A DNA stretch of 64,000 bases, taken from positions 62,001-126,000 of the forward strand of contig CAMCMB010000007.1 of assembly GCA_945875845.1 (NCBI GenBank), read 5' to 3'. Positions 2,803 through 47,963 of this stretch are shown here, one piece after another (positions within the stretch are counted from its first letter, which is position 1; each line of letters begins with the position of its first letter). This DNA comes from Pirellula staleyi DSM 6068. Lineage in GTDB: Bacteria; Planctomycetota; Planctomycetia; Pirellulales; Pirellulaceae. The translations under genes and the position numbers were made by a program. Below the pieces are notes generated by a model. The model made no database searches. It saw nothing but the letters and a program-made list of their open reading frames with translations, and was not told the origin of the DNA.

Positions 2803-2982
2803 CCACCCGTGCCCGTAAGCGAGGTACCGACTGCCATCCCTCGCTCACCGGGCTGTGGCTTTAGTGAAGTCGTCATTGGGTAAGGGCGGTGTGACGGACT
2901 TCCAAGTCCGTCAATGGGGAATTCGACGGACTAGGAAGTCCGTCGTACCATTAAATCAAAAGCCCGTTACGCTTCGGGTTGC
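2803..2982 (+). mobile_element. 118-bp inverted-end element (copy 1) inside a larger palindrome
   Basis: The 118-bp core is 2849-2966. Its ends are degenerate versions of CGGCTTGTTGCTTTA and its complement. Inside are two hairpins built on ACGGACTT/AAGTCCGT, separated by AATGGGGAATTCG. Flanking four bases are TCAC (2845-2848) and TTAC (2967-2970), one mismatch apart. Outside lie palindromic arms (GTAAGCGAGG and CCTCGCTCAC on the left, TTACGCTTCGGGTTGCC on the right). Same element as at 17378, 29204 and 47818. No coding capacity. Confidence 0.8.
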
Positions 2983-3074
2983 CATAGCCTATCCGGGGGA
3001 GAACGCGACCTTTCGCGGAGCGATAGGCGACACTGTTGGATCGAGCGGTCCCTAACTTGACAAAATTGGGCGGA

Positions 3075-4745
3075 TTATCTCGATGTGAATTCGATGTTTC
3101 GCTGCTCGCTCAGCAGTTCGTCTTGGTGGATGCGAATCAAATCGCTTGAGTAACCATATTGCATGGGCCAGACTTTTTTTAGGGTGACATCCATTGTGGA
3201 ATCGATTTCGACGTTGGCCACAATCGTCGATTTGGAAGCCGTGGCTAAAAATTCACCGTCGCGGTATACGAGGTTGCCACGTCGAAACACCATCTTGGGT
3301 CTTGCGAACATGTGCTCTGGGTTTTGGCAGCGTTCGTAAACGACCACGTCGGCAAGTCCTCCATCGCTCAAGGATCCGCGATTGGAAAGCCCCAAAGCTC
3401 TCGCTGGCCCCAACCGTGTCATCTTGATGATCTCGTCGAGCGAATACTCTCGCTTGAGCGACGCCAGGGAACTCGTTCTTTGTACGTCCGCGTGCAACCG
3501 CTCAAAAATCGACATCCGAAAATCATAGCTCATCAAGAGATGAATCAAATGCGGGTAGGCCGTAAAAGGTGCGCCGTTGGGGTGGTCGGTAGTCAAGAAG
3601 ACTCGCAGTGGGTCTTCGATACGAAGAAACAGTTCGAGTCCGATGGCCCAAAGCAAGCTATGGACATACTGATCTTGACGGTATTTAAATGGCAACACGC
3701 CGCAGCCCGCTTGGCATTCTAAATCCTGAAAGATGGATTTCCGAGGACGCGCCAGTTTGCGATTTGCAAACTGATGCATCGTATCGCCCGACAGAGTCAC
3801 GGTTTGTCCAAATTGCATCTGGCCGACATCAATCGAAAGATTCGATTCCGCGTTCACTCGATCGGCTAACACTTTGGCTGCCGAACAATATCCATGTGGA
3901 CCCTCCGTGCCGTAACAATGAAATTGAGCATGGGTCAAATGCAGTCTACGTCCTTCGACGGCATCGATCGTCGCCATGGTGGAAGCGATGTTGCCGGCGA
4001 CACCTAAATTGCTGCAATGGACATGTAGTGGATGAGCCAGACAAAGCGACTCGACGGCATGCGATAAGGACTGCAGAATTTGGCGTGGCGTGATTGAAAA
4101 GTACCAGTGTTTCTCGTCAACATCCAAATGGCGTTGATTGAATTTGAACGCGTCGATTCCCCCTGCATTGACAACCTTGACCGCACAGCACTGATGTGCT
4201 CGTATCATCCACGCAACATAATCATTGATCTGCGATTGCGGTACGCCCTTGCTGATCCATTCCAGCAGGAGTCGATCATTCCCAAGCAACAAGAATCCAC
4301 CTGTATCGAGCCAAGGCGTATCCGCCATCTCAGCGTGGGCGTGGCGAGCATTTGCTGGCAACACCGCCGGTTCGAAACATGCCGTGTAGCCCATTTCAAG
4401 ATATCGCCTGCCGGTCTCCCAAGTTCCAGGAACGGGAGAACTGAGGGGTGCGATTTTCTTCCATTCCTTTTCTGTGCGTTCCGATTCCGTGCGTTCCGAT
4501 TGAGAACGACCGTGGCGCACCATCTCGGGCAACAAGAGTCTTGCGATGTTGACCTTTCCGCCACCAATGTGCGTATGCAAGTCGATTCCGCCCGCAACGA
4601 CGATGTGATTGCTTAGGTTGTATTCGGCATCCGAACGAGCATCCTTTGAAACAGAAAATATCGTATCCTGCACGAGATAGAGATCGCGAACTTCGGACTT
4701 GCTCACACCGTCAATGCATTCCCCTCCAACGAGACGTGTGATCAT
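3075..4745 (-). CDS. fhcA: Formylmethanofuran dehydrogenase subunit A-like / Fhc complex subunit A
   Basis: An amidohydrolase-fold protein of 556 residues. In bacteria with the tetrahydromethanopterin C1 pathway, the Fhc complex releases formate from formyl-carrier and this subunit carries the hydrolase site. Metal-ligand motifs are visible: HTH in GGIDLHTHIGGGK (residues 57 and 59), the lysine of CAVKVVNAGGIDAFKF, His in HPLHVHCSNLG and LTHAQFHCYG, and Asp in TTDHPNGAPFTAYPH. The ATG at 4745 overlaps the fhcB stop as ATGA, which favours it over the in-frame ATG at 4766. Subunits C and D are not in the window. Downstream is a repeat element and then an unrelated peptidase. Confidence 0.88.
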   Translation of the reverse strand: MITRLVGGECIDGVSKSEVRDLYLVQDTIFSVSKDARSDAEYNLSNHIVVAGGIDLHTHIGGGKVNIARLLLPEMVRHGRSQSERTESERTEKEWKKIAPLSSPVPGTWETGRRYLEMGYTACFEPAVLPANARHAHAEMADTPWLDTGGFLLLGNDRLLLEWISKGVPQSQINDYVAWMIRAHQCCAVKVVNAGGIDAFKFNQRHLDVDEKHWYFSITPRQILQSLSHAVESLCLAHPLHVHCSNLGVAGNIASTMATIDAVEGRRLHLTHAQFHCYGTEGPHGYCSAAKVLADRVNAESNLSIDVGQMQFGQTVTLSGDTMHQFANRKLARPRKSIFQDLECQAGCGVLPFKYRQDQYVHSLLWAIGLELFLRIEDPLRVFLTTDHPNGAPFTAYPHLIHLLMSYDFRMSIFERLHADVQRTSSLASLKREYSLDEIIKMTRLGPARALGLSNRGSLSDGGLADVVVYERCQNPEHMFARPKMVFRRGNLVYRDGEFLATASKSTIVANVEIDSTMDVTLKKVWPMQYGYSSDLIRIHQDELLSEQRNIEFTSR

Positions 4746-5926
4746 GGTGCAAGCCTTGCCAACCAATAGGCCGCAGGTCGCACTCGCGACTCGTCACACT
4801 CGTGCGATGGTGTCAAATGAGCAAGCAGCGTTTGATCTGCTCGAAAAATGTCTGCCGCGACTTCAGCACCTGCGACTGCTGTCGGGAATCTCACCGAGCC
4901 CGCAGTCAGCTCAATCGCATAAAATTTGCGATCCAACCCAAACTTCATTTTCGCACGAAATGGCTCTGTCGCAACGGTTTCGTCGATCGCAATTACGACC
5001 GAATCGCTGTCGAGATCACGGGACGCCGCAAGCCAGTTTTCATAGCTATGGGCATAGGTATCAAAGCTTGGAATACCATCTTGAAATCGGATACGTCCCG
5101 GGAAACCGGTCAACCATGTGCAAACTTGCTGGAATGTCCCGTCCAAGGAAGTCCAGGGGAGAGCAGCACAGCGTTTCGTTTCGTTTTGACTGGCAATCCA
5201 CTCCAGCAAGCGTTCGACCCATAAATCCGCTTGCTCGACAAACAGGCTTGCGGCGGACCATAGGACCGCGGTGTATTTTGCATTTTCTAGGGCAGTAAAA
5301 AGTTCGGATGTCATTCGATCTTGGGATGATTGAGCCATCGCGTTGGACCATTGCAGCAACGCGGACGGAACCGATTCGAGTTTGCAGGAAATGGACCAAG
5401 GTTGAAAACCCGCCGCCTGCCATGCCTTCATCGATTTGTCCGTGAATCCTCCGAGAAGCAGAACCGTCTTGCGTGACATGTTTTGGCCGTGCAACGCGTG
5501 GGGGATTCTCGGGCACGCGTCGAACAACGAATCGTCACCGATCACAATCAGCAGATCGGCATGATCGCGTGCCTCGGCCAGGGATACGGAGTTTATTCCA
5601 GCGCGTTGGATTGCTTGCACGTTTTTGAAAATGTGCCCAGCTTCGGCGCAGTCGATCGTTCCGTTTAGCTTCATCGCAAGGGCAACTGCGGCCCTTGCCG
5701 TTTGAACACTGGCGATGCGGCCCGTTATCAAAACACGTTTGGCAATTCCCAGCAACTCGATCGATGCAGCAAGTTCCATCTCTGGGTCAAGAACGGATTC
5801 GTTGAAGCTTGGGTCAAGCTGGGAACGGAACTTTGCCAATTGATTGAGCGACTTGTTCCTGAGTCCGCAATCGATCTCATTGAGGTCAGTTGCGTCACAA
5901 AGCAAAGAACAAAACGGGCAAATCAT
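4742..5926 (-). CDS. fhcB: Formylmethanofuran dehydrogenase subunit B-like / Fhc complex subunit B
   Basis: A 394-residue protein starting MICPFCSLLCDATDLNEIDC, the typical N-terminus of FwdB/FmdB relatives. Archaeal subunit B binds molybdopterin and an iron-sulfur cluster; bacterial FhcB is known as a shortened form thought to have lost that redox role, and the cysteines here are too few for a standard four-cysteine cluster. Segments such as RVLITGRIASVQTARAAVALA and HADLLIVIGDDSLFDACPRI fit the Rossmann-like core. Translationally coupled to fhcA by ATGA, and it starts only 3 bases after the leuB stop, so leuB-fhcB-fhcA are probably co-transcribed. Confidence 0.85.
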   Translation of the reverse strand: MICPFCSLLCDATDLNEIDCGLRNKSLNQLAKFRSQLDPSFNESVLDPEMELAASIELLGIAKRVLITGRIASVQTARAAVALAMKLNGTIDCAEAGHIFKNVQAIQRAGINSVSLAEARDHADLLIVIGDDSLFDACPRIPHALHGQNMSRKTVLLLGGFTDKSMKAWQAAGFQPWSISCKLESVPSALLQWSNAMAQSSQDRMTSELFTALENAKYTAVLWSAASLFVEQADLWVERLLEWIASQNETKRCAALPWTSLDGTFQQVCTWLTGFPGRIRFQDGIPSFDTYAHSYENWLAASRDLDSDSVVIAIDETVATEPFRAKMKFGLDRKFYAIELTAGSVRFPTAVAGAEVAADIFRADQTLLAHLTPSHECDESRVRPAAYWLARLAP

Positions 5927-5929
5927 CGC

Positions 5930-7009
5930 CTAAGCTACCAACGCTTGGAGGACATGATCGGTGATCTCAATCGTGCCGAGCGAAGGCTGGCCGCGACGAA
6001 CCAAGTCGGCGGTACGATGACCCGCGGCAAGCACACTTCGAACCGCTGTCTCGATTGCCATCGCCTCGTTTTCGAGACCCAAAGAATGCCTAAGCAGCAT
6101 GGCAGCAGCAAGAATGGTCGCAAGCGGATTCGCAATCCCTTTGCCTGCGATATCCGGTGCTGAACCATGAATGGGCTCATACAAACCTGGACCGGACGAC
6201 CCGAGCGAAGCACTTGGTAGCATACCCAGCGAGCCGGGGAGCATCGAAGCTTCATCGGTCAAAATGTCACCAAACATATTGCTCGTCACAACCACGTCAA
6301 AACTCGTTGGGCGGCTCAACAAATGCATGGCCATTGAATCCACCAAGACAACTTCATACTCGAGAGAAGGAAATTCCTCTTTCATGATCTTTGCGGAAAC
6401 CCGACGCCAAAGTCGCGATGCTTCCAGCACATTGGCCTTGTCGACCATGGTAAGTTTGTTGCGACGCTTCAAGGCCGCGCGAGCTGCCATGCGCACAATC
6501 CGTTCGACCTCGCTAGTCGTGTAAACCGCCGTGCTAAAGGCTCGCTGTTGTCCATCTGGGAGTTCCTCAAGACCGGACGCGCCAAAGTACAGACCGCCCG
6601 TAAGCTCTCGAAAGAACAGAATGTCCGTCCCCTCGATAATCTCTCGTTTCAACGGAGATGAGTCGAGCAGTTCTGCAAACGTAACGATGGGACGAAGATT
6701 CGCGAACAGGCCGAGCTCCTTGCGGATCTTGAGCAAGCCGGCTTCGGGACGGGTCTTGGCATTGGGATCGTCCCACTTTGGGCCGCCGACGGCACCGAGC
6801 AAGATCGCATCGGATGACTTGCAGGCAACAACCGTCGCGTCTGGCAAGGCGTCGCCCGTCTCATCGATGGCGATGCCTCCTATCAGGTGTTCGGAAAACT
6901 CGAATTGATGCCCAAACTTAGAGGCAATGGACTGAAGAACTCGAACCCCTTGCTGAACCACTTCGGGGCCAATGCCGTCTCCCGGCAAAAGAACGATCTT
7001 AGAATGCAA
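5930..7009 (-). CDS. leuB: 3-isopropylmalate dehydrogenase
   Basis: A 359-residue enzyme of the isocitrate/isopropylmalate dehydrogenase family, the NAD-dependent third step of leucine synthesis. Family marks are [12 protein letters not shown] at the N-terminus, GAVGGPKWD, the arginine-rich substrate site ([21 protein letters not shown]), [30 protein letters not shown], and the NAD/metal site [29 protein letters not shown] with [14 protein letters not shown]. Length is normal. It heads an apparent operon with the two C1-pathway genes fhcB and fhcA, an unusual partnership. Nothing visible upstream looks like a leucine-rich leader peptide. Confidence 0.95.
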
Positions 7010-7069
7010 AATGATGGCTCGTGAATGGGATGGGGGTTTGAGGCGAGGAACGAACAGATTTTGTCATCT

Positions 7070-7105
7070 GTTTTTCAAAAGAAAAAGCCCAGGGGTTGCC
7101 TGAGC
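7070..7105 (-). terminator. Intrinsic terminator between the IscA-like gene and leuB
   Basis: On the minus strand GCTCAGG and CCTGGGC form a stem around CAACC and run straight into a T-rich tract (TTTTTCTTTT). It lies about 300 bases after the IscA-like stop and 60 bases before the leuB start, so it ends upstream transcription or acts as a leuB attenuator; the sequence cannot decide. Confidence 0.5.
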
Positions 7106-7407
7106 CTGCTTGACGCGTTGAGTCACGACTAAGCTACGAACCTATTTGCAAAGGACAAAACAAAGTCGCTTGTTGCTCCCACGCTGTGAAAGAATTCTTT
7201 GGACATCACCGGTGGGCTCGCGACAAATGGTCATTGCTTTGTTAGCGAATGGTTCACATTCGCAGTGGAAGTCGCCAAGAGACTATCCTGAAAACAAGTG
7301 TTAGTGCCGCTTACTTTCTCGGAGCGAAAGGCGACGATAATCATTCACGTCCTCGACGCGGAGCGTCGAGGAACGAAGCGTGGATCGAACCGTGGCATTG
7401 CTGAGCT
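7106..7407. other. Intergenic with a strong hairpin, no gene seen
   Basis: Contains a perfect 9-bp inverted repeat at 7351-7371 (CCTCGACGC, GGA, GCGTCGAGG), 37 bases after the IscA-like stop; it has no T tract, so it may protect the mRNA 3' end rather than terminate. A segment near 7313-7336 resembles a short sequence also found near 3006 and 17315 (a GGAGCGAAAGGCGAC-like motif). No reading frame is convincing. Confidence 0.4.
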
Positions 7408-7737
7408 TTACTGGAACGACTTACCGCAACCGCAGGACTTGGTTGCGTTCGGGTTTTCGAATGTGAATCCTTGTCGTTCCAAGCTTTTGTGCCAACCAAT
7501 GACTGCACCATCCAAGAGCAATGCGCTCTTTTTGTCGACTACAACTTCCACACCGTGTTGGTTGTATCGGCTATCTTTTTCGTCATCGTACTTGTCGTCA
7601 AAGCTTAGGGAGTACTCAAAGCCGGAACAACCGCCTGCAACAACGCCGACCCGAACAAACGTGTCGGTTGCCAAGTTCCCTTCGGAATGGGCTCGCTTGA
7701 GTTCAAGAGCAGCCTCTTCTGTTACGTTTACCGCCAT
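7408..7737 (-). CDS. HesB/IscA/ErpA-type iron-sulfur assembly protein
   Basis: A 109-residue A-type carrier for Fe-S cluster assembly. The three conserved cysteines are present: Cys37 in VVAGGCSGFEY and Cys102 and Cys104 in the C-terminal SCGCGKSF. The rest (FVRVGV, YSLSFDD, VVVDKKSALLLDGAVIGW, FENPNATKSCGCG) is a normal family pattern and length. I cannot separate IscA from ErpA by sequence alone. It stands alone with its own downstream hairpin; no other isc or suf genes are near. Confidence 0.92.
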   Translation of the reverse strand: MAVNVTEEAALELKRAHSEGNLATDTFVRVGVVAGGCSGFEYSLSFDDKYDDEKDSRYNQHGVEVVVDKKSALLLDGAVIGWHKSLERQGFTFENPNATKSCGCGKSFQ

Positions 7738-7966
7738 CGAATTACCTCAAAACCATGTTATAAAAGGATTTGCGACTTGGATTCGAAGTTGAACCTGTCG
7801 TCGCCGATCACGTCAGTGTTAGATGCACTATAGTATGCCTGTCGAGTCGGACAGGGCAAGTCAAAATTGCCTTTGCATCATATGCTAATCCTGCTATTCT
7901 ATCGATGCCGATGTTGTCTGTGCATCGGACCAAATCGATTTTGAACCTCAAACCTTACGCAAAACC

Positions 7967-8065
7967 ATGACCAAGCCTCACCGAAAACTGAAAAAAGCCA
8001 ACCACGGACAACGTGCGGCCAACAGCAAAGCCCGCAAATCCAAACGACGTAAGGTCCGCACCTAA
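7967..8065 (+). CDS. 32-residue, very basic small protein
   Basis: A short frame starting ATG at 7967 and stopping TAA at 8063-8065, giving MTKPHRKLKKANHGQRAANS followed by KARKSKRRKVRT. Fourteen of 32 residues are Lys or Arg and none is acidic, as in small ribosome- or RNA-associated proteins. I believe similar basic micro-proteins occur in other planctomycetes but cannot check. The composition is far from random translation of this GC content, and no longer frame competes on either strand. It sits 77 bases before the FabZ-like gene. Confidence 0.55.
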   Translation: MTKPHRKLKKANHGQRAANSKARKSKRRKVRT

Positions 8066-8142
8066 CGAGCCTATTTTGACCTTAAATCGCGCGGAACGGT
8101 ATTTGCGGTGCCGCTAAGGACTTTTGATTCGGGAAATGGTCT

Positions 8143-8652
8143 GTGGTCTTAAAAGATTTCATCGTCGATCCAGATACACTCGACTTCGACAACGTCGTCG
8201 CGGACATAGAGCAGATCCGCAAGTACAACCCGCAACGTTTCGAAATGGAGCAGTTGACGGCGATTATTTTTGAAGATGCCGTTCGAGTTGCTTGTGTTGG
8301 ATACAAAGACGTGACCGACCAAGAATTTTGGGTTCGTGGACACATGCCGGGCATGCCGTTAATGCCTGGTGTGGTGATGCTCGAGGCTGCCGCCCAAGTT
8401 TGCTGCTATTGCTCTCACAAATACGGCTTGTTGGGCGATTCCATGGTGGGCTTCGGAGGGTTAGAGGAAGTTCGATTCCGCGATCCGGTGGTACCTGGCG
8501 ATCGTTTGATTGTGATGTGCGAACTACTCAAAGTTCGTAAGCCGCGGTTGATCGTCTGCCGATTTCAAGGGGTTGTCAAGCGAAACATCGTTGTCGAAGG
8601 AATCCTCAAGGGCATTCCAATTCCGGTCGAATATTTGGCTTCGAAAAAATAG
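8143..8652 (+). CDS. FabZ-like 3-hydroxyacyl-ACP dehydratase (hotdog fold)
   Basis: A 169-residue single-hotdog protein. The catalytic signature GHMPGMPLMPGVVMLEA holds the active-site His67 and Glu81 in the FabZ spacing. Further family marks are FGGLEEVRFRDPVVPGDRL and the strand pattern RLIVCRFQGVV. Dehydration of 3-hydroxyacyl-ACP in fatty acid synthesis is the family role, but planctomycetes carry several divergent paralogues, and this one has a longer N-terminus (about 50 residues before the hotdog), so its chain may be a special lipid. The start is GTG at 8143, since the nearby ATG at 8136 is out of frame. Confidence 0.82.
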   Translation: MVLKDFIVDPDTLDFDNVVADIEQIRKYNPQRFEMEQLTAIIFEDAVRVACVGYKDVTDQEFWVRGHMPGMPLMPGVVMLEAAAQVCCYCSHKYGLLGDSMVGFGGLEEVRFRDPVVPGDRLIVMCELLKVRKPRLIVCRFQGVVKRNIVVEGILKGIPIPVEYLASKK

Positions 8653-8936
8653 CCTCTTCCGCCATCTTGGCCATGACGAATGGATGGGAAAATCATTGGG
8701 AGAGCTAGGCTCCTGCCGAGCTATTTACGCAACAGTTCGGCAGAAGCCTCACCCCCCCGAGCAACGAATTGGTTGGGCAAAGCGAATGAAAACATGTTTG
8801 CTTGGTTACAAAGAAATAGCCTACCCCGCCATCTTGGCCATGTCGAATGGAAGGAACATCTTTGGGAGGGCGAGGCTCCTGCCGAGCTCACGACGCAATG
8901 GTTCGGCAGGAGCCTCACCCTCCCGAGCGCGTAATG
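8651..8936. repeat. Tandem pair of palindromic repeats (183-bp family, partial)
   Basis: Two copies about 167 bp apart, each starting AGCCT..CCGCCATCTTGGCCAT. The hairpin cores are at about 8698-8761 and 8864-8924: GGGAGGGCGAGGCTCCTGCC pairs with GGCAGGAGCCTCACCCTCCC in the second copy. The first copy also carries the tail with GAAAACATGTTT seen in the full-length copies at 19482 and 44719. The pair fills the space between two convergent genes and could end transcription from both sides. Confidence 0.75.
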
Positions 8937-8938
8937 GC

Positions 8939-9850: not shown

Positions 9851-9873
9851 GGATTGGACCTTGAAAGGGATGG

Positions 9874-11183: not shown

Positions 11184-11511
11184 ATCCTGGTTCCTGGGGT
11201 ATTGAAAATGGAGACTAGTCCCCTATTGAACTCGATTTTAAGCGCTGCTTGCTCAACGCAGCCACTATCTTAGCACATCATCGCTACCCGAATTTGCTGC
11301 TACGAATTCCGTTTCCAATCCCCGACAGGTTTAAGCACGCAAATCGAGTAATTTTGGTAGCATATGTTACACCATCTGCCTCCCAACATTCCGAAGGGCG
11401 AGATTCCGAAGGGCGAGATTCCGAATGGCAAAAATCCCATCGTTTACGAGCAGTGCAAGGCTTGGGCCATGCTTGAAAATGTTCCGACAGATTCGCAATC
11501 AGGAAGACTCC
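11184..11511. other. Divergent intergenic region with a short tandem repeat
   Basis: Separates divergent genes and should hold both promoters; no clear consensus boxes seen. A 15-bp unit (ATTCCGAAGGGCGAG) is repeated two and a half times at about 11389-11427. An in-frame ATG at 11425 falls in the last unit but is not the likely start of the next gene. Confidence 0.45.
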
Positions 11512-12759: not shown

Positions 12760-12777
12760 AGGGCATTCAACGAAGCC

Positions 12778-12862
12778 TGCTTAGGATCACCGGACGGCTC
12801 GCGCCGTTCCGCTACCAAATTGTTAGCGGCGGGGCGCGAGCCCTCCGGTGATGACCCAAGCA
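12778..12862 (+). terminator. Large palindrome followed by T run, repeat-derived terminator
   Basis: Arms with the core ATCACCGGA (from 12786) and TCCGGTGAT (to 12852) extend outward to TGCTT and AAGCA and inward through GGCTCGCGCC. TTTTT follows directly on the plus strand. It lies 18 bases after the amidohydrolase stop. The core resembles the interior of the element inserted in hsdR at 32177-32310, so it is a member of a repeat family serving as a terminator. Confidence 0.6.
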
Positions 12863-13026
12863 TTTTTCCCAGCCTAGAAACGAAAGGCGACATAGAGAAC
12901 ACAGAACCGTGAACAATTTCCGGTTTTGGTTCAACCCTCCCGTCGCGATGGATGGGTCTCGGCCTATACTGAACAGGAGGCATTGACCAGTACTTGTTCC
13001 CTCGGTTCCCTCGAAATGATCTTGGC

Positions 13027-17289: not shown

Positions 17290-17360
17290 CGCCTAGAATG
17301 TGATTTTATCATCGTCGCCTCTCGCTCCGCGAAAGAGGCGTTCTGCGTCGGATTGGCTAT

Positions 17361-17543
17361 GGTAACCCGACGCGTAACGGCTTGTTGCTTTAATGGTACG
17401 ACGGACTTCCTAGTCCGTCGAATTCCCCATTGACGGACCTGGAAGTCCGTCGTACCGCCCTTACCCAATAACGACTTCACTAAAGCAACAAGCCGGTGAG
17501 CGAGGGATTGCAGTCGGCTCCTCGCTTATGGGCACGGGTTACC
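17361..17543 (-). mobile_element. 118-bp inverted-end element (copy 2) nested in a palindrome
   Basis: The core is 17378-17495 and reads opposite to copies 1 and 4. Inverted ends are CGGCTTGTTGCTTTA and its exact complement. The flanking four bases are GTAA (17374-17377) and GTGA (17496-17499). Outside, GGTAACCCG at 17361 pairs with CGGGTTACC ending at 17543, and the bases after the core form GCGAGG-loop-CCTCGC. It lies between convergent genes. Confidence 0.85.
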
Positions 17544-17624: not shown

Positions 17625-17682
17625 TCAAAGCAACAAGCCGGTAAGCGAGGGATTGCAGTCGACTCCTCGCTTACGCATGGGT
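17625..17682. repeat. Solo half of the nested palindrome/118-bp element
   Basis: Starts with CAAAGCAACAAGCCG, the right end of the 118-bp element, followed by GTAAGCGAGG and CCTCGCTTAC separated by GATTGCAGTCGACT. It matches the right junction of copy 2 (17481-17530) without the rest of the element. Confidence 0.65.
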
Positions 17683-19481: not shown

Positions 19482-19664
19482 GGGAGTGCGAGGCCACCCC
19501 TCTAAACATCTTTGCAATGACGGATGCATTGGAAACCAATGGGAGGGCGAGGCTCCTGCCGAGCTTACGACGCAATGGTTCGGCAGGAGCCTCACCCTCC
19601 CAAGCAAGGAATGGATTGGGCAAAGTCGAGGAAAACATGTTTCGAGGGGTGGCCTTGCCCTCCC
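19482..19664 (+). repeat. 183-bp palindromic repeat (full copy)
   Basis: Outer inverted ends GGGAGTGCGAGGCCACCCC and GGGGTGGCCTTGCCCTCCC enclose a central hairpin (GGGAGGGCGAGGCTCCTGCC with its near complement). A second full copy of the same 183-bp length lies in opposite orientation at 44719-44901. Between tRNA-Leu/rpsL and the divergent PSD1 gene; no coding capacity. The rest of 19268-19784 shows nothing else I can name. Confidence 0.8.
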
Positions 19665-19784
19665 GTTATTCCCAATGATTTTTTGACTCCAAGAGCGAGA
19701 CGGCCTCCAGTGCCAGCTCGGGGACGAATTGGGTTATAGTAGGACAGCGGCTTCGCCCGTTAATCCCTACTACCCGATAAATCC

Positions 19785-29096: not shown

Positions 29097-29184
29097 GGCG
29101 ACAACCGCTCCATTCATCCAAGTTCGAAAAAATCTTTGTGACAATTCAAAGTATAACACGGATCAAACGCCGCCAAACAACCTG

Positions 29185-29340
29185 ATCAGCCGGAACGCGC
29201 TAACGGCTTGTTACTTTATTGGTACGACGGACTTCCTAGTCCGTCGAATTCCCCATTTACGGACTTGGAAATCCATCGTACTGCCCTTACCCAATAACGA
29301 CTTCACTAAAGCAACAAGCCGCTAACGCCCTGCGGCTGAT
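29185..29340 (-). mobile_element. 118-bp inverted-end element (copy 3) nested in a palindrome
   Basis: The core is 29204-29321, read in the same orientation as copy 2. Ends are CGGCTTGTTACTTTA and TAAAGCAACAAGCCG. CTAA stands directly on both sides (29200-29203 and 29322-29325), a perfect 4-bp direct repeat. Outside, ATCAGCCG and CGGCTGAT form the arms of an enclosing palindrome of different sequence from copies 1, 2 and 4. Confidence 0.85.
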
Positions 29341-31791: not shown

Positions 31792-33889
31792 TTATCGCTG
31801 TTCGCGCAACGATTCATACAGCTCTGCCGGTCCCAACAGGATCGCCTTCAAGCCCTTGCGGACTGCTTCGGAACTAAGCGCTTGACTGCTCATCAGGTTA
31901 TGAGCATCTAGGGCTTCCATGATGGCGTTCCTCAGCGAATTATCAAGGTCTGGGGAGTTGGCGAATTGCTCCTTGCTGTTGTTGAGCGCTTGCTGAATCA
32001 ATACCTTGGACTCGTGCAACTTGCCTCGAATAACGTTGTTCACGTACACCAGCTTGTCGTTGTCTGTCAGCTCCCCTTTAAAAAGGTCGTTTACCTTTTC
32101 GATGATCTCGTTCAACTAAGCCTTTTGCTTCTCTTGAACGGAGCCGCTGCCGGCAGCGGTGATCGGAGCTAGCGCTCAATGGCACTCACTTTCGGTTCGA
32201 ACCAATGTTTTCGTAGCGGAGCGGCGCGAGCCGCCCGGTGAATATCCAAGTGATTTGCCTACGGTCACCGGACAGCTTGCGCTGTTCCGCTACAAAGTGA
32301 GTGCCATCTGGCTAGCGCTGGGAATTCACCCCCTGGCAACTTCAATTGCGGTTTGCCTTGGCTCTTTAAGTTGTGGTGGGTCAGCATCATGCTCGACAAG
32401 TCGACGCCGTCGCGTTCTCGTCCGAATTTCAGCAACGGAATCAGCCTCTTGAAGAAGATCGAGCGCTTTTCGATGTCCGTGTTTCCGTAATCGAAGATCT
32501 GCGATAGGAACGCATAGAGCCGATGGAATGTTCCCATGTCTGCTCGGAATAGGAGCAACACGTCCATCTGGTCTTTCGCGGCAGCAGCAGCTTTGGTGTC
32601 TTTATTGGTTGTAGCAGCTTTGAATTCTGTACGTGCTGCTTTGAATTGCTTGAGAAGCCTATCAGCAACCGGGGCGATAGCGGCTTCTAGCTGGGCTTGT
32701 TTCGAGTCCGGATTGAGCTCCACGAAAACAACGCGGTTGACTTCGAACTCGTCGTAGAAACCCATTGAATCGATTTTGGACCGTAGATCCAACACGATGT
32801 TCGGATCGGTGATGCCTGATAGTGTTGCCGTCGTGTAGTACGTCTTGAACGCTGCTAGGATTTCTTCGGGCTCGTTGACGAAATCTAGAACATAAGTTGA
32901 TCAAAGCCGGTTTGTAATTTGTTGGCGACCAACAGTATTTGATACTCGTCTTCTTTGAACGCTTCACGAATATCGCGACCCTTTAAATTCGGGTGTCCTG
33001 GTCCTTCGGCGAGAACGGCGGCTTGAAGTTTGCGAGTCACGTCGAGTTGATGGTATCGAGGAAAGATATAGCTCTCGATCTGTTTCTTCTTGTTCTTCTT
33101 GGCAACGACGTATCGCCCGATGATCTCAAGCCAACTCGTTCGCTCCCAGACCTGTTCCCAAAGGTATGCCGTCCGATGTCCGAGCGGATTGACTGGATTG
33201 CCCGCAGCGCCATTGTCGCCCAGGTTGAAGGGCAAGAACGCAGTCTTAGCACCCTCGAGTTTCGTCGTCATGTGGACTTTGCTATTGCTGACCGCAAAGT
33301 GCACTAATGCTCCAAATGGGAAAGAAAGCAACGGTTCTGGATTCTGTCCTTTTGGCGATGGGTTGCGATCGAGTCGGAATTGGTCGATTGCGTCTTGGAT
33401 GCCCTGCGTGAAGTCGGTTTTCAGCTCGACGGTTGCAATGGGCAGCCCATTAAGGAACAGGACCAAGTCAATACTGTTTTCATTGTGCAGAGAGTAACGA
33501 ACTTGCCGAACAATACGCAATTGGTTCGCAGCGTAGCGAGTCATGATTAGCGGATTGATCTCAAGAGCCGGCTTGACTTGCATCATGGACAGTTTGTTAC
33601 GTTGTCCCAGCATTTCGAAACCATTGCGAAGCACGTCAAGCGTCCCGCGTTGGTTGATCGAGTCCCGCAATCGGCTAACGATCACTTCACCAGCGTTAGC
33701 GCCATGGCTCTTGGTGGCAGCCTCCCAAGCGTCCGGTTGCGATTCCTGGAGCCAGTCAATGACGTCGTCAGGAAACAGTGCCCGAGCCCGATCGTATCGG
33801 CTCGCATCGCCAACGGCATAGAGCCAACCGTGGTTCACAAGGTGCTCGCAGATGGCGTTTTCGAAATTGATTTCGGTGTGGATGGTCAT
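31792..33889 (-). pseudogene. hsdR: Type I restriction enzyme R subunit, inactivated
   Basis: Read from 33889 downward. An intact HSDR_N nuclease domain (residues 1-295; catalytic pattern IDLVLFLNGLPIATVELK) runs into YHQLDVTRKLQ, then jumps near 32992 to PNLKGRDIREAFKEDEYQIL, so the helicase motor with its Walker A motif is deleted. After LQTGFDQ (about 32886) a second deletion and frameshift lead to LDFVNEPEEILAAFKTYYTT and the C-terminal helical region (32265-32880). A 134-bp element splits the C-terminal part at 32177-32310, and the sequence resumes as ITAAGSGSVQEKQKA, stop (TAG), LNEIIEKVNDLFKGELTD to 31792. The pieces follow the usual HsdR order. No R subunit activity is possible. Confidence 0.9.
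32177..32310. mobile_element. 134-bp element with inverted ends and 9-bp target duplication, inside hsdR
   Basis: Ends are CAATGGCACTCACTTT (32177) and, read inward from the other side, CAGATGGCACTCACTTT (to 32310). GCTAGCGCT stands directly on both sides (32168-32176 and 32311-32319). Removing the element and one copy of the nine bases rejoins the hsdR frame as GEFPALAPITAAGSG. The interior is a large palindrome (CGGAGCGGCGCGAGCCGCCC and TCACCGGACAGC..GTTCCGCTAC) with no reading frame for a transposase, so a transposase elsewhere must have moved it. Confidence 0.88.
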
Positions 33890-33937
33890 TTGGAAAGTCC
33901 GGGCGATCCGTACAGAATTTGTTTGTTAATTCAACAT

Positions 33938-34047
33938 GGAGCTACCCAGGTTTGCGGCTGGAGCTACCCAGGTTTGCGGCTGGAGCTACCTAGGTTTGCG
34001 ATTGGAGCTACCTAGGTTTGTGGCTGGAGCTCCCTAGGTTTGCGACC
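33938..34047. repeat. Array of five 22-bp repeats
   Basis: Five direct units without spacers; plus-strand unit GGAGCTACCCAGGTTTGCGGCT and close variants. The minus-strand unit CTGGGTAGCTCCAGCCGCAAAC is the same family as the 21-bp units at 35703-35868. It lies 48 bases upstream of the hsdR pseudogene. The 22-bp period does not fit codons. Confidence 0.85.
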
Positions 34048-35165: not shown

Positions 35166-35182
35166 TGTCGCAATCATAGTAG

Positions 35183-35437
35183 GTCAAGTGTCCCCAGTTG
35201 GTTGATCGAGTCCCGCAAACGGCTAATGATCACTTCACCAGCGTTAACGCCATGACTTTTGGTGGCAGCCTCCCAAGCGTCCGGTTGCGATTCTTTGAGC
35301 CCGGCAATGACGTCGTCAGGAAACAGCGCCCGAGCCCGATTGTATCGGCTAGCATCGCCATCGGCATAAAGTCAACCGTGGTTTGCAAGATGATCGCAGA
35401 AGTCGTTTTCGGAGTTGATTTCCGTGTGGATGGTCAT
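35183..35437 (-). pseudogene. Second hsdR 5' end, broken copy
   Basis: The 255 bases closely match 33635-33889, the 5' end of the hsdR pseudogene. The minus strand begins MTIHTEINSENDFCDHLANHG and then meets a TGA where the other copy has Trp (HGWLYAVGDASR). The match ends abruptly near 35183, just before the pRiA4b-type gene. Two related hsdR genes or a duplication stood here. Confidence 0.85.
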
Positions 35438-35702
35438 TTGGGAAGTTCAGGCTTTAGCGGGCAGTATTTTTTTTAATTCCATTTGAATCCATCAAATAAC
35501 CGTCAAATAAGGTTTTCCGCCATAAATTCATTGCAGGAAACGACTTGCGATTCTTCTTTCGGAAACAACACTCTGTTGTATCGCATTCTATCAAATAGGT
35601 TTTTGTTGGTTTGTGAATCGTCTGTGCGCCACAAACAGGTTTGTGAGTGGCAAAGAGCGAAAAACGAGTCACAAATAGCTTGGTGCCATTCGCTTCGCAT
35701 TT
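35438..35702. other. Intergenic, no gene seen
   Basis: A/T-richer than its surroundings, between the broken hsdR copy and the repeat array. Short frames exist on both strands but none shows a known domain or a reliable start. Probably further debris of the accessory region. Confidence 0.35.
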
Positions 35703-38226: not shown

Positions 38227-38265
38227 ATTTATCTGGTGATCCGGCTCGAGTTTTTGCTTGTTTTT

Positions 38266-41861: not shown

Positions 41862-42053
41862 GGAGTGCACAAAGGTTAAGGTTTTTGGAAGCTTCGGACA
41901 CAATTCTAGCAAAAAATGACCCAGTTCGCACTATCCAACATGTGCCTACACGTCGCGCACTGCGTTAAACGGCCATGGCTAGGCGTTTGGCGCACCATTT
42001 GCAACCTTCTGTTTTTCCGTTTTTCAACTGCCAATTCGACCCTGGAGATACCG

Positions 42054-44693
42054 ATGTCTTTTCGCATGGATAAACTGACAATTAAAGGGCAGGAATCGAT
42101 CGTGGAAGCTCAATCGATGGCTTCCGCTGCCGGTAATCCAGAAATCGAAGGATTGCACGTCTTTGCCGCATTGCTCAAGGATAACGAGGGGGTCGTCGTG
42201 CCTCTGCTTAAGAAAATCGGAGCACCGCTCGACAAACTCCAGTCCACCACCATCGCCGAGCTGAAGAGACTGCCTCGAAGCACCGGCGGTCGTCAGCCGA
42301 CGATTAGCCCAACGCTGCAAAAAGCACTTGAGGCAGCTGCATCCGCTGCGGAGGCGATGAAGGATGAATTTGTTAGCACAGAGCATTTGCTCTTGGGGCT
42401 ATGCAGGACGGAAAACAAAGCCAGCGGATTGTTGAAGCTCCTGGGGGTTGCAGAAGCCGATATCCTGACCGCCTTGCAAAGTGTTCGAGGTAGCGCTCGG
42501 GTCACCGATCAAAACCCAGAAGGGAAATTTCAAGCTCTTGAAAAGTATGGTATCGACCTTGTTGCCCTCGCAACGAAGAACAAGCTCGACCCGGTCATTG
42601 GGCGCGACAACGAAATCCGACGCGTCATTCAAGTTCTCTCTCGACGCACGAAGAATAACCCCGTCCTCATCGGCGAGCCCGGAGTTGGAAAAACCGCAAT
42701 CGCCGAAGGACTAGCCCAGCGTATTGTCCAAGGGGATGTTCCACAGACGTTGAAGAACCGGCGTGTCATTTCGCTTGATATGGGTGCTCTCATCGCGGGT
42801 ACCAAATTTCGCGGCGAGTTCGAGGAGCGGCTTAAAGCGGTCATTCGCGAAGTCAAAGATGCTGAGGGAGAAGTCATCCTCTTTATCGATGAGTTGCACA
42901 CCGTCATCGGCGCTGGAGCGGCCGAAGGTTCGAGCGATGCAGCCAATTTGCTTAAGCCCGAGCTTGCTCGCGGGCAGTTGCGATGCGTGGGCGCCACCAC
43001 CCTCAATGAATACCGTAAACACATCGAAAAAGATGCTGCACTCGAACGTCGCTTTCAACCGGTCTACGTAGGCGAGCCGAGCGTCGAAGATACGATCACG
43101 ATTCTGCGAGGTCTCAAGGCGCGTTACGAGGCCCACCACGGGGTCAAGATCCGAGATGCGGCCCTCGTGGAAGCAGCCAAGCTGTCGAATCGCTACATCA
43201 CTGAGCGATTCCTCCCGGATAAAGCGATCGATTTGGTCGACGAAGCATCTGCCCGCATTGCCATGGAACGCGATAGCGTCCCTACCGAAATCGATACGCT
43301 GCAACGCCGCTTGCGGCAATTGGAACTCGCTCAACGCCAGCTCAATGACGAATCCGATGATTCTACGGAAGACGCGTTGGAGGACGTTGAACAAGAAATG
43401 GCAAAGATCCAACGAGAGCTAGCAAGTCTTCGTGAGCAGTGGGAGTCGGAAAAACTCGGGCTATCCGGTGTCGGCTCTGTTCGCCGTTCACTTGAGAAAG
43501 CCGAAGGAGAATTTCGTCGGCTCGATTCACTCATCAAGGAGCAACAATCCACGGGTGCAGGCGTCAAGGAATCCGATTACCAAAAACTTTTTGAACTCGA
43601 TCAACAGCAACGCAAGCTTCGCGAGCAAATCGAAACCGAAGAAGAGGTTGAGACGAAGTCGAGTACGGAACCCGGCAAGACGCGACTGCTCCGAACAGAG
43701 GTGACCGCAGATGAGATCGCGACCGTTGTGAGTTCCTGGACGGGGGTTCCCGTGAATCGGATGCTGGAAACCGAACGAGCGAAGTTGTTGGTGATGGAAG
43801 AACGTTTGCATCAGCGAGTCATCGGCCAAAACAAAGCGGTCGAAGCGATCAGCAATGCGGTGCGTAGAAGTCGCAGCGGAATGCAAGATCGCCATCGACC
43901 GATCGGATCCTTCTTGTTCTTGGGGCCGACGGGAGTGGGTAAGACCGAACTTTGCAAAGCCCTCGCGGAGGTCTTGTTTGACGACGACACATCGATGGTC
44001 CGAATCGACATGAGCGAGTTTGGCGAAAAGCACAACGTGAGCCGATTGGTCGGGGCACCTCCCGGCTACGTCGGATACGAAGAAGGGGGCCAATTGACCG
44101 AAGCGGTTCGACGTCGACCCTACAGCGTTATCTTGCTGGATGAAATTGAAAAGGCCCACACGGATGTCTTCAACATCCTTTTGCAAGTGCTCGACGATGG
44201 TCGACTGACGGATGGCCAAAACCGAACGGTCGATTTTACGAACACAGTGGTCGTCATGACCAGCAACATCGGTAGTAAAATGATCCAACGCGTCGCAGAC
44301 GAGGGTGGGTCCGAAGACGATATGGAGCAAGCGGTTCAAGAATCGCTCAAGCTAAAATTCTTGCCCGAATTCCTCAATCGAATCGACGAGACGATCATCT
44401 TCGAACCACTCAAAAAAGATCAAATCCGAAAGATCGTGAGCTTGCAGGTTCGCAAACTCGAAGAAATGCTTGCCGAGAACCATTACAAACTGAACATCAC
44501 AGAAAAAGCCATCGATGCGATCAGCAACGAAGGCTACGACCCAGTTTATGGTGCTAGGCCACTCAAGAGAGTTATCCAACGTCGGCTTCAAAACAAGATC
44601 GCGTCGGAACTGCTCAAGCGCGAAGAGAACGAAGGAGGCAGTATTCATGTGGATTTTGTGGACGACGAATTCCAAATCGCCTCCCATCCCTAG
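42054..44693 (+). CDS. clpB: ATP-dependent disaggregase ClpB
   Basis: An 879-residue Hsp100 chaperone that works with DnaK to rescue aggregated proteins. The ATG at 42054 has GGAG before it and gives [16 protein letters not shown]. Order: N-terminal Clp repeats (1-150), AAA1 with Walker A GEPGVGKT (about 207-214), the long coiled-coil M domain (about 400-530) that marks ClpB rather than ClpA/C, and AAA2 with GPTGVGKTE (about 623-631) and the sensor MTSNIGS. Complete. I found no CIRCE element upstream. Confidence 0.97.
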
Positions 44694-44718
44694 AGCAACC
44701 CCGTGAAAGGACTCGCTC

Positions 44719-44901
44719 GGGAGGGTGAGGCCTGTCCGGTGAACATGTTTTCCTCGACTTTGCCCAATCCATTCCTTGCTTGGGAGGGTGAGGCTCCTGC
44801 CGAACCATTGCGTATTAAGCTCGGCAGGAGCCTCGCCCTCCCGCTGGTTTCCAATGCATTCGCCATTGCAAAGATGTTTAGAGGGGTGGCCACGCTCTCC
44901 C
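44719..44901 (-). repeat. 183-bp palindromic repeat (full copy, inverted)
   Basis: The same 183-bp element as at 19482-19664, in the other orientation: GGGAGGGTGAGGCC at one end and GGCCACGCTCTCCC at the other, with the central hairpin at 44781-44841. It begins 26 bases after the clpB stop and lies between convergent genes, where its stems could end transcription. Confidence 0.8.
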
Positions 44902-44944
44902 ACTGAGTTCCGCTGGTTCGACATGGGGAAAGATGGATTCAGTA

Positions 44945-45970
44945 CTATCTCACCAACGACACGTTCGCATCACCGCCAACGAGCCGCTCTACTTCGGCAC
45001 GATTGATGAATGGCAAATCGCCCGGGATACTATATTTGAGTCTAGCTGTGGCTATCGCCCAGCATAGCGAACGATCGAGATCGGGCTTGTCCAGCCAAGC
45101 GGACAAAAAGCCTGCTGAGAATGCATCGCCCCCTCCAAGGCGACCGACGGGCTCGACCGGTTTGCACGCTTGGAAAAACGACTGCGTCGAATTGCTTGCC
45201 ATGGCGCCACGTTCTCCAAGCGTCATCACAGTAGGCCTACCCGCTCGCATGCTCAACAGTTGGCCCATAACCAACTCGTCGCTTTGACGGTTATCCAATC
45301 CCCAAAGATTGACCGCATCGCGGCGTGGCAGAAATACCAGATCCGCAGTCTCGAAAAGGGACTGGCTGTAAACTTGTGCTGAGGAAGCGGAGCAAAGAAG
45401 CGTTCGATGGTTCACGTCAAAGCTCACTTGCCAACCGGCCGCGCGAGCAAGTCGGACAGCATGTCCGATCAACTCCCGACCGCTATCGCTCAACCAGAGC
45501 GAGATGCCCGTGACATGAAGCCATTGCGACCTGCCTACCTCAAAGATTCCGGTCGGCAATTCGGACGGAACAAATCGCGAAAAGGCGGAGTTCGCTCGAT
45601 CGTAAATGACGTGGCTGCTGCGCGGCGGAGAGCCTGTTTCGAGGAAATACAAACCCACTCGATCTTGGTCGGTCCAAACGACGTGCTGCGTATCCACGCC
45701 CTGCGCTGCGATAGCTCTGGCAATCCGATGCCCCAAGTGGTTGTCGGTCAACCGCGAAATCCATGCCACACGCTTGCCCAATCGCGCAAGCCCAACGGCG
45801 GTATTGGATTCGCTTCCGCCCACATGCACTTGAAGCGATTCCGCTTGCTCCAATCGCAAGAAGGCGTCCGGAGTCAATCGCAGCATCGTCTCGCCAATCG
45901 TTACGACATCGTAGTCGCGCTGCACCTTGGGTTGATTTGCTGCCTCTTTCTCGCTTTCACTTGCACTCAT
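44945..45970 (-). CDS. PfkB-family sugar kinase, probably 2-keto-3-deoxygluconate kinase
   Basis: A 341-residue ribokinase-fold enzyme. The ATG at 45970 overlaps the end of the aldolase gene by 14 bases. Family motifs: VGGSESNTAVGLARLG near the N-terminus, SFDVNHRTLLC, and the catalytic GGGDAFSAGF. Neighbouring KDPG aldolase makes KDG kinase the likely role (KDG plus ATP gives KDPG), a step of Entner-Doudoroff-type sugar acid breakdown. Substrate choice by sequence alone is not certain. Confidence 0.86.
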   Translation of the reverse strand: MSASESEKEAANQPKVQRDYDVVTIGETMLRLTPDAFLRLEQAESLQVHVGGSESNTAVGLARLGKRVAWISRLTDNHLGHRIARAIAAQGVDTQHVVWTDQDRVGLYFLETGSPPRSSHVIYDRANSAFSRFVPSELPTGIFEVGRSQWLHVTGISLWLSDSGRELIGHAVRLARAAGWQVSFDVNHRTLLCSASSAQVYSQSLFETADLVFLPRRDAVNLWGLDNRQSDELVMGQLLSMRAGRPTVMTLGERGAMASNSTQSFFQACKPVEPVGRLGGGDAFSAGFLSAWLDKPDLDRSLCWAIATARLKYSIPGDLPFINRAEVERLVGGDANVSLVR

Positions 45971-46613
45971 CGGTAAGCTCCATTTGGCAAGCAGCCACGT
46001 ATTGCTGTGCCACTTTTGCGACCGTGTTCCAGTCCTTGTTTTGAAGTGCGATTGGGTCAAGTAATTGACCGCCAATACCAACGGCCACAGCCCCGGCTTC
46101 CAAGTACTGAGCAATGTTTTTCAAATCGACACCTCCGGTTGGCATGAGTTTCAAATAGGGCATGGGCGCGAGCACATCACGAATATAACTTGGGCCGAGA
46201 GCACGGGCTGGAAAGACTTTGATGATGTCCGCCCCAGCATCCCAAGCCAATGCGATTTCGGTTGGCGTAAACGCGCCCGGACAAACCGCGACCTTGTTTT
46301 GCTTGCAATATTCGATAATAGGCACAGACAAGATCGGAGAAACGAGGAATTGAGCGCCGAAATCGATCGCGATCTTGGCTTCTTTGAGCGATCGAACCGA
46401 CCCAAGCCCGATGACCGCGTTGCCATCGCGAATCGCTGGATTCGTTTCCCGAATCGACTTGATTACGGACGGGGACTCGGGATTGGTGAGGGTAAACTCC
46501 AATGCCCGTATTCCCGCTCCGATCAGCGTATCGGCGATTTGGGCGGCCGCAGACAAATCGTCGAGACGTAGGATTGCGACAAGCCGAGATTGAAAAATAA
46601 GTTGTTGGGTCAT
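45957..46613 (-). CDS. eda: KDPG/KHG aldolase
   Basis: A 218-residue class I aldolase splitting 2-keto-3-deoxy-6-phosphogluconate into pyruvate and glyceraldehyde 3-phosphate. The Schiff-base lysine is Lys132 in GADIIKVFPA; Glu39 in ALEFTLTNPE and the phosphate loop MPTGGVDL are present. The ATG at 46613 gives MTQQLIFQSRLVAILRLDD. It is coupled to the sugar kinase downstream. Confidence 0.9.
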   Translation of the reverse strand: MTQQLIFQSRLVAILRLDDLSAAAQIADTLIGAGIRALEFTLTNPESPSVIKSIRETNPAIRDGNAVIGLGSVRSLKEAKIAIDFGAQFLVSPILSVPIIEYCKQNKVAVCPGAFTPTEIALAWDAGADIIKVFPARALGPSYIRDVLAPMPYLKLMPTGGVDLKNIAQYLEAGAVAVGIGGQLLDPIALQNKDWNTVAKVAQQYVAACQMELTDECK

Positions 46614-46763
46614 AAGCAAAAAATGGATTGCTAGCAAGCAAGTTTAGGAAAGATTTGCTGATTGTATCGATTGTACTGGCCGATACCATCAGTATTAGGA
46701 GTCGACCTCATCACACGGGCAATCGATCCATTGGATTTGCGTGCAAGCAAAACTTAAGGGCGC

Positions 46764-47705
46764 ATGGAAATGAAATCAGTCGTAGTTGGATGGATGTTTG
46801 GTTTGGGGCTACTTTTGAGCCACGTCGGATGTTGTTCGGTGCGCATGATGGGTGAGGGATGCGGCGCGGCGAATTGCGGAGGCGGATGCAGTGCAGGCTG
46901 CGATACAATGGACTTTGGCGATCGAGTGGTGCCGTTTGCTGGTTTCGGCAATCGCATCGCTAATCATATCCGAAGCAAGAATTGCAGTTCGGGTTGTGGC
47001 GAGATCTATTGGGACGAACAGATCAACGAACCGCCGGTTTGCGATCCATGCGGACACGATGGAGAGTTCACGGGCGATTCGTGCAGAAGCTGCCCAACGA
47101 CACTTCGGCGACTGCGAAACCTTTGGAACCACCAACGCTTTCAACCGTCGAACTGTGATTCTTGTTCGTCGTGCGGTGGCGACGCTGGTTTTTCAGGTGC
47201 AAGCACTTGTTCAAACTGTTCCTCTGGGGGCAGCGAAAACGATTCCATGCACATGAATTTGGAACCATCCCAGCCGGAACCAATCCAGTCGGAACCAATC
47301 CAGTCGGAACCAATCCAGTCGGTCCCAACACGGTCGGTCCCAACACGGTCGATTCACATTCCTCCGATGCAAACTCCTTCAATGCAGTCGAATCCATCCC
47401 GCCGCAGCGTTGCACCTCAAAACGATTCAAGTCGCGCTCAGCCGACGCCCGCCGATCGTAGTCTACGAGAGGCTCCACCGGTGTTAAGAAATACACCTGC
47501 TCCGGTTCCGGATCCAAATGCCATGGTTCGCCCTTCCTTGCAAAAGGGGCAGACCGCCGGCTCAGATACAACCAATCAGAAACCGTCGGTCCATTCGCAC
47601 CGAGCGATCAATTCGCAGCAAGCGGTGAAAGCAAAGCCCGTAGCGGGCAAAGCGAGCCAAAGCGTGCAGGGTAAACCTCGATTAGCGGCGAACCCTCGTC
47701 CGTAG
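46764..47705 (+). CDS. Cysteine-rich predicted lipoprotein, planctomycete type
   Basis: A 313-residue protein. A signal peptide ends in LLLSHVGCC, a lipobox. The first half has some 25 cysteines, with GEGCGAANCGGGCSAGC and a stretch CGEIYWDEQINEPPVCDPCG that I recognise as a recurrent planctomycete motif. The second half is low-complexity (Pro/Ser/Gln), with EPIQS repeated three times from a 15-bp DNA repeat at about 47276-47320. Probably a disulfide-linked cell-surface protein; function unknown. A 23-base direct repeat straddles the stop codon. Confidence 0.7.
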   Translation: MEMKSVVVGWMFGLGLLLSHVGCCSVRMMGEGCGAANCGGGCSAGCDTMDFGDRVVPFAGFGNRIANHIRSKNCSSGCGEIYWDEQINEPPVCDPCGHDGEFTGDSCRSCPTTLRRLRNLWNHQRFQPSNCDSCSSCGGDAGFSGASTCSNCSSGGSENDSMHMNLEPSQPEPIQSEPIQSEPIQSVPTRSVPTRSIHIPPMQTPSMQSNPSRRSVAPQNDSSRAQPTPADRSLREAPPVLRNTPAPVPDPNAMVRPSLQKGQTAGSDTTNQKPSVHSHRAINSQQAVKAKPVAGKASQSVQGKPRLAANPRP

Positions 47706-47803
47706 GCAAAGACGAACCCTCGTCCGTAGGCAAAACAGCGTCGCCTTTTGATTCGCAAAAGTTGCGTTCATGACGGATCTTTTGCGGAGAGCTGTGATTT
47801 CAT

Positions 47804-47963
47804 AACCCGACGCGTGACGGCTTGTTGATTTAGTGAAGTCGTTATTGGGTAAGGGAGGTACGACGGACTTCCAAGTCCGTCAATGGGAAATTCGACGGAC
47901 TAGGAAGTCCGTCGTACCATTAAAGCAACAAGCCGGTGAGCGAGCTCGCTTACGCGTCGGGTT
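47804..47963 (+). mobile_element. 118-bp inverted-end element (copy 4) nested in a palindrome
   Basis: The core is 47818-47935. GTGA stands directly on both sides (47814-47817 and 47936-47939), a perfect 4-bp direct repeat. Outside, AACCCGACGCGT (47804) and ACGCGTCGGGTT (to 47963) are exact complements. Without the core and one GTGA, the remaining 38 bases form an almost perfect palindrome, so the element looks inserted in an older repeat. Confidence 0.88.

Follow-up and report, generated by a model that had tools for sequence, protein, structure and literature searches.

Four copies of a 118-bp sequence with inverted ends lie inside other palindromes in a 64,000-nucleotide stretch of the Pirellula staleyi DSM 6068 genome (GCA_945875845.1, contig CAMCMB010000007.1, positions 62,001 to 126,000 of the forward strand; hereafter, the window). 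This raises the question of whether the sequence is a mobile element that landed in these palindromes or a component of them. A previous reading, made from the letters alone (the sequence-only reading), had proposed a non-autonomous element that targets repetitive extragenic palindromic (REP)-like sequences. Our analysis agrees with it: we assign a probability of roughly 0.8 to a family of miniature inverted-repeat transposable elements (MITEs), bounded by the 15-bp terminal inverted repeats (S)GGCTTGTTGMTTTA, that generates real 4-bp duplications in REP-like palindromes. The observations directly support a discrete 118-bp element, its 4-bp duplication, its choice of target, its insertion into itself and its position outside long reading frames.

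The four copies, all of 118 bp and with the same interior (type A), are located where the sequence-only reading had placed them: 2849-2966 (copy 1, minus strand), 17378-17495 (copy 2, plus), 29204-29321 (copy 3, plus) and 47818-47935 (copy 4, minus). Their 15-bp ends had been described as shared, which holds in part: they are exact on both sides in copy 2 only, copies 3 and 4 are one base off at the left end, and copy 1 is decayed, with three mismatches on the left and more than three on the right. The flanking 4-mers are those reported, i.e., TCAC (2845-2848) and TTAC (2967-2970) for copy 1, GTAA (17374-17377) and GTGA (17496-17499) for copy 2, CTAA on both sides of copy 3 (29200-29203 and 29322-29325), and GTGA on both sides of copy 4 (47814-47817 and 47936-47939). 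Copies 1, 2, and 4 split a palindrome that we named REP1 (AACCCGACGC-GTRA-GCGAGG, interrupted in either arm) at 2814-2980 (arms 2814-2848 and 2967-2980), 17364-17540 (arms 17364-17377 and 17496-17540), and 47804-47963 (arms 47804-47817 and 47936-47963), respectively. Removing the core and one 4-mer leaves the predicted second palindrome in each of them: 22 bases are paired in a 25-bp arm in copy 4, and the inner arms are perfect over 11 bp in copy 1 and 9 bp in copy 2. Copy 3, whose remaining palindrome had gone unmentioned, lies in the CTAA site of another palindrome (29184-29340; arms 29184-29203 and 29322-29340), and the same removal leaves 8-bp arms, ATCAGCCG...CGGCTGAT. All four copies are placed between long open reading frames (ORFs), which we took for genes.

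The host genome (7.0 Mb, 149 contigs) was sampled in contig order, including the window, contig C1, and stretches of C2-C10 and C12, for a total of 78 stretches and 1.604 Mb (23% of the genome). Three stretches picked because they hold matches (L093-L095) were left out, and three stretches of C3 that had initially been picked for matches were kept, as 160 of the 174 kb of C3 were later included. A search for inverted ends 100-140 bp apart identified 59 elements in this sample: 54 of 118 bp, three of 117 bp, one of 123 bp, and one of 127 bp. Extrapolation gives approximately 258 elements per genome, an underestimate, as decayed elements such as copy 1 do not pass the end criteria and are missed. 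A hairpin with the letters CGTC is present in 56 of the 59 elements; in the whole genome, it occurs 585 times with at most one mismatch (0 for the reversed control), which fits the extrapolated number at two hairpins per element. The genome-wide search for the core that had been suggested, with copy 2 as query, returned 44 near-full-length matches, even though scoring was limited to 40 of the 336 candidates.

Among neighboring ends 30-3000 bp apart, 41 of 45 pairs in host loci (some of them picked for matches) were at 118 bp, while in G190, a genome of another genus, 63 of 67 were at 116-119 bp, 52 of these at 117 bp. The pattern of paired ends matched at 104 places in the host and at none when reversed, which rules out chance or an assembly artifact. 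Ends lacking a partner (up to four mismatches, 60-420 bp) were rare, with 16 distinct ones among 553 detections, duplicates included. The element is therefore MITE-like in its 15-bp inverted ends, its 4-bp target duplication, its shortness, its absence of coding capacity, and its many dispersed copies. Two forms deviate in length: in L083, a deletion form of 74 bp flanked by CTTG/CTTG repeats, and in L095 (12316-12515), one of 200 bp, in which two palindrome doublets stand in tandem between GTGA and GTAA flanks.

The flanking 4-mers were identical in 35 of the 59 host-sample elements and differed by at most one base in 47. Shuffling the partners gave a mean of 7.8 identical pairs and a maximum of 17 in 2000 shuffles, and other flank lengths were rarely identical (3-mers, 1; 5-mers, 0; 6-mers, 1). 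When GTAA or GTGA was present on both sides, the sides agreed in 18 of 22 cases (Fisher P 0.007), which argues against a 4-mer carried along from the donor. A larger, non-random set, made up of 104 elements with lengths of 105-130 bp and including the 21 contigs found by a length-limited pattern, contained 61 identical pairs and 81 with at most one mismatch. From this set we took the 64 host elements, 52 of which had 4-mers with at most one mismatch, and compared their rejoined junctions with the fetched host DNA by ungapped matching: 34 of 52 matched an uninterrupted sequence when one 4-mer was dropped, and none of 52 when both were kept. Together with the identical 4-mers, this upholds the earlier proposal of a non-autonomous element inserted in REP-like palindromes. 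Elements were also found within elements, namely three of 240 bp (118 + 118 + 4), plus one 118-bp host element that is unfilled.

The targets of the 47 elements with matching 4-mers were rejoined and sorted by a simple rule: 23 were REP1, 14 belonged to a CTAR class, assigned from the 4-mer alone, and 10 were other sequences, several of which are REP1 variants by eye. Many, not all, of the CTAG sites read ACCGGACG-CTAG-CGCGTTCCGG or its reverse, which defines a second target palindrome. At elements of other hosts the duplications included TTGC, GCGA, TGGC, and TGAA. The (N)T(A/G)A-type site initially suggested thus describes the GTRA of REP1 and is too narrow in general: CTAR is also used, mostly in the second palindrome, and further sites elsewhere. 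The rejoined targets of the 52-site test had more stable folds than random 70-mers from C1 (median −11.7 versus −7.1 kcal/mol; Mann-Whitney P 2e-11), a loose control, as those pieces are mostly coding. Stop-free frames of 200 aa enclose more than half of the length of only one of the 59 elements, compared with 988 of 1180 random 118-mers; either a preference of the element or selection can suffice to produce this position.

We then considered the conservation of the element among relatives. The core search on 60 genomes, host included, gave matches in at least 14. Near-full-length copies exist outside the host; among the matches listed, they are found only in three genomes of the same genus (G002, G014, and G016), and the remaining matches in relatives correspond to the hairpin pair. 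The two-end pattern at 80-140 bp was present in nine of 296 genomes including the host, with places at 114-127 bp among the matches listed. The end-only pattern was present in two of 146 genomes, namely the host and G133, which belongs to a third genus and harbors two 117-bp elements; these have an interior of their own and lie in REP-like sites where the repeats are TTGC and GCGA. Elements also occur in named records: Rhodopirellula maiorica SM1, metagenome-assembled genomes (MAGs) of Pirellula and Rubripirellula, a Planctomycetaceae MAG, and a groundwater Planctomycetales MAG. These members were found by a pattern limited to 114-123 bp and were excluded from the claim on length, which is based on the searches at 80-140, 30-3000, and 100-140 bp and holds within those ranges. 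Among 37 stretches of viral contigs with the 16-base end, none contained an end pair at 100-140 bp, and the few pairs at 185-2869 bp had three to four mismatches; we took these matches as chance.

In two other genera of the family, the same ends, mostly 116-119 bp apart, enclose interiors some of which are unrelated, often with a palindrome set against one end. Clustering produced 12 interior types, which reduce by eye to about eight unrelated kinds of palindrome. The commonest length per type is 117-121 bp, with two small types at 114-115 and 122 bp and single members from 110 to 123 bp. The bases adjoining the end are common to the types, and the spacer beyond them is unalignable across all types. 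The 16 cluster representatives fold better than their mononucleotide shuffles (z −3.6 to −15.0), with the paired ends contributing part of the effect. In nine of them, several of which are related, the interior palindrome spans 51-72 nt, starts at most 7 nt from one end and leaves 11-32 nt at the opposite end, a criterion set after the folds were seen; seven fall outside it, one being palindromic throughout.

With ends allowed up to five mismatches, every type-A doublet matched in 447 kb of host DNA and 395 kb of G190 had an element end: one or two in 34 of 34 host matches, and an end in 43 of 43 in G190. Close kin of the doublet are free-standing in related species, at 17 partly overlapping loci of 10 genomes (G004, G007, G009, G013, G019, G023, G024, G025, G034, and G035), where no end with up to three mismatches lies within 150 bp and only scattered ends with four to five mismatches exist. 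These free-standing kin, and the unrelated interiors behind the same ends, show that the interior palindrome is a module that can part from its frame. Additionally, a tandem array of GTACGACGGACTTCCAGTCCGTCG-type palindromes without element ends lies at about 1500-1700 of L036 (G013).

The mechanism we propose is that of a non-autonomous DNA transposon. A putative transposase, most likely of the DDE type and supplied in trans, would recognize the ends and not the interior, and would make a 4-bp staggered cut for the element to be pasted into; this would happen mostly at GTRA or CTAR within REP-like palindromes and would duplicate the 4 bp. Some findings weigh against insertion by such an enzyme. 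Twelve of the 59 host-sample elements lack even near-matching 4-mers. Empty sites, which the sequence-only reading had proposed to compare with filled ones, are known from paralogs only, and chiefly for the first palindrome: a regular-expression search for uninterrupted copies of the second returned no rows, and a looser scan gave 12 matches, 10 of which are filled sites by our reading, so that few are uninterrupted. For the copy at 29204, both flanking genes are present in the two nearest genomes and the intergenic sequence is too diverged to be aligned. The transposase gene with matching ends that had been suggested as a check did not emerge from partial searches, which took in 23% of the host's sequence, 395 kb of G190, and the 11 DDE_Tnp_1 and four DDE_Tnp_1_2 loci, most of each genome being unread. 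The host sample contained three lone-end pairs at 140-4000 bp, with a longest frame of 76 codons and no transposase, and the G190 stretches contained no lone-end pair over 400 bp. No ends with up to two mismatches were found near 11 DDE_Tnp_1 (PF01609) loci of four genomes, nor near the four DDE_Tnp_1_2 (PF13586) matches of 10 element-bearing genomes. Within the window, the claim that a transposase is absent applies to the 38 of 62 listed ORFs scanned with Pfam, none of which gave a convincing one (the other 24 were unscanned); a ClpB-like protein matched TniB and IstB weakly, by virtue of its ATPase domain. We also rejected candidates for an autonomous parent with ends paired up to 3-4 kb in the fetched loci: these pairs were nested, were combinations of neighbors, or had no large frame. 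Further end pairs were at 156 and 362 bp in L370, 356 bp in L183, and 796 bp in L093, the last with a poor left end.

The association with REPs is also in part co-duplication, which counts against insertion as well: positions 2805-3006 and 17338-17539 of the window, including copies 1 and 2, form an inverted match of 202 bp at 90%, with 84 bp of it beyond the core, and the host contains a tandem array of three copies with palindromes in between. This is what would be expected if REP and core were one composite palindrome, similar to a bacterial interspersed mosaic element (BIME), spread by recombination or copying, with the 4-bp repeats as a by-product of REP symmetry. The high occupancy of REP1 left sites points in the same direction (46 filled and 26 uninterrupted, 13 of the 26 with the other arm filled, by our own count). 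We consider this improbable, however, because elements are present in either arm of REP1, in the second palindrome, and at other sites; in another genus, REP positions of this kind are taken by elements with other interiors; elements are inserted within elements; and the uninterrupted sequence is restored only after one 4-mer is removed.

Even less probable, in our view, is transposition by an HuH enzyme (RAYT-type, Y1), in which a REP-associated tyrosine transposase (RAYT) would move a folded single strand beside a GTRA-like foot, with the right 4-mer traveling along. The long hairpins formed by whole elements would suit such an enzyme, with the same caveats on shuffles and paired ends as above. 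The 4-mers, however, vary widely and yet agree pairwise, as a target duplication would, and Y1 enzymes are not known to make one. Among 19 host loci with a Y1 match (PF01797; about 1.5 kb on each side), there is none in which element ends bracket the gene, and an element is present in only one (L073), about 1.3 kb from the match. One locus, L070, encodes a Y1-like ORF of 180 aa (225-767) with REP1 palindromes on both sides, so that the gene is flanked by the target palindrome rather than by the element. Repeats flanking a Y1 gene, which characterize REPs and REP doublets forming hairpins (REPINs), were thus seen for REP1 (1 of 19, with a weak family score) and not for the element (0 of 19). 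The match of this ORF to NCBIfam REP_Tyr_transpos is weak (21.5 bits, cut-off 80), and the following ORF (819-1349) is presumably macrodomain-like, judging by its look. By eye, the Y1-like protein has a Y....Q motif like that of class-3 Y1 proteins, of which 11 of 24 come from Planctomycetes (PMC6006769); that paper gives their foot as CnGA and not GTRA. This suggests two layers, in which REP1 may be spread by its own Y1 enzyme and then serve as a landing site for the MITE.

A more tentative extension of the MITE reading is that of a cassette-like mini-transposon, with constrained ends and a length of about 118 bp, whose palindrome is exchanged among unrelated REP families across genera. The machinery would need the fold of the strand into one hairpin, with the palindrome against one end and a spacer of 11-32 nt at the other, and not a sequence; the enzyme would be encoded by a chromosomal gene that lacks the ends of the element, in the same relation that RAYTs have to REPs. 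We regard this as possible and rather doubtful, and we judge in the same way an explanation that concerns only this modular part and is compatible with the MITE itself: the elements might be internal-deletion derivatives of one insertion sequence, with an inherited length and interiors that only look unrelated after fast divergence. Indeed, within one host, most elements have interior and length in common, including the CGTC hairpin, and the bases beside the end are common across types. Conversely, the parent element was not found in the searched stretches, and palindromes without ends that resemble some of the interiors exist both in related species (doublets of the CGTC type) and in the host (REP1).

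Among known systems, IS5-type elements have YTAR targets and IS903-like ends; our element is reminiscent of IS5 in its 4-bp YTAR duplication, and the IS903 end looks similar. It differs in that no DDE_Tnp_1_2 gene with these ends was found in the 10 element-bearing genomes, where DDE_Tnp_1_5 (PF13737) had no match either, in a search that was silent in all controls and hence gives no evidence of absence. Bacterial MITEs such as QMITE2 of Coxiella burnetii are likewise short, bounded by inverted repeats, gene-less, and flanked by direct repeats, and QMITE2 holds a GTAG palindrome by way of which it is targeted by IS1111; as far as the available text of that review goes (PMC10969869), duplications there are of 7-9 bp instead of 4, sizes vary widely, in contrast with 54 of 59 elements at 118 bp, and unrelated interiors behind the same ends distinguish our family. 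ISPsy8, ISPa11, ISPpu9/10, and ISRm22 insert at a fixed point of REPs, as here, and ISRm22 does so at the palindrome axis, somewhat similarly to our CTAG class (Tobes and Pareja 2006, PMC1525189, in its available part). These are insertion sequences with repeats of 3, 0, 2, and 6 bp, respectively, whereas our element is gene-less, has a 4-bp repeat and more than one family of target palindromes, and reaches about 250 copies. The type-A interior resembles the hairpin-forming doublets of REPINs and BIMEs, which are thought to be spread by an outside enzyme, the RAYT (available parts of PMC3116915, PMC6006769, and PMC3733652); here, the doublet is enclosed in 15-bp inverted repeats with a target duplication, and no element-flanked RAYT gene was found. 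A CGTC class of REPs with no known transposase is described in the accessible text of PMC3733652, and the likeness is limited to the letters CGTC.

Elements that target REPs and MITEs that bear palindromes are therefore already known (PMC1525189 and PMC10969869, in the parts available). The apparent novelty is that frame and length stay constant around unrelated palindromes in several genera, plus self-nesting; a literature search by titles, the basis of this claim, retrieved no paper on such an element in planctomycetes. The family suggests that one set of transposon ends can carry different palindromic repeat families, which bears on the origin of REPs and their relatives. A favored landing palindrome resembles the interiors of some elements of the family, so that new sites can arrive with a copy, and a narrow peak in length shared by unrelated interiors would indicate that transposition has a physical requirement.

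Other repeats were present in the window. A single element end with one mismatch (17626-17640, minus strand) adjoins another REP1 copy (from 17641 on) and is probably a half-decayed neighbor element. A different dispersed palindromic repeat of up to 184 nt, with TCGGCAGGAGCCTC arms, occurs at 8664-8937, 19482-19665, and 44718-44901, with 91% identity between two inverted copies; the repeat that hosts the 74-bp deletion form in L083 resembles it. A direct repeat of 275 nt (33630-33904 and 35178-35452, 88%) adjoins a 22-bp tandem array, TGGAGCTACCCAGGTTTGCGGC, at 33937-34046. Lastly, a 33-nt inverted repeat (12787-12819 and 32209-32241, 91%) is perhaps a further REP family.

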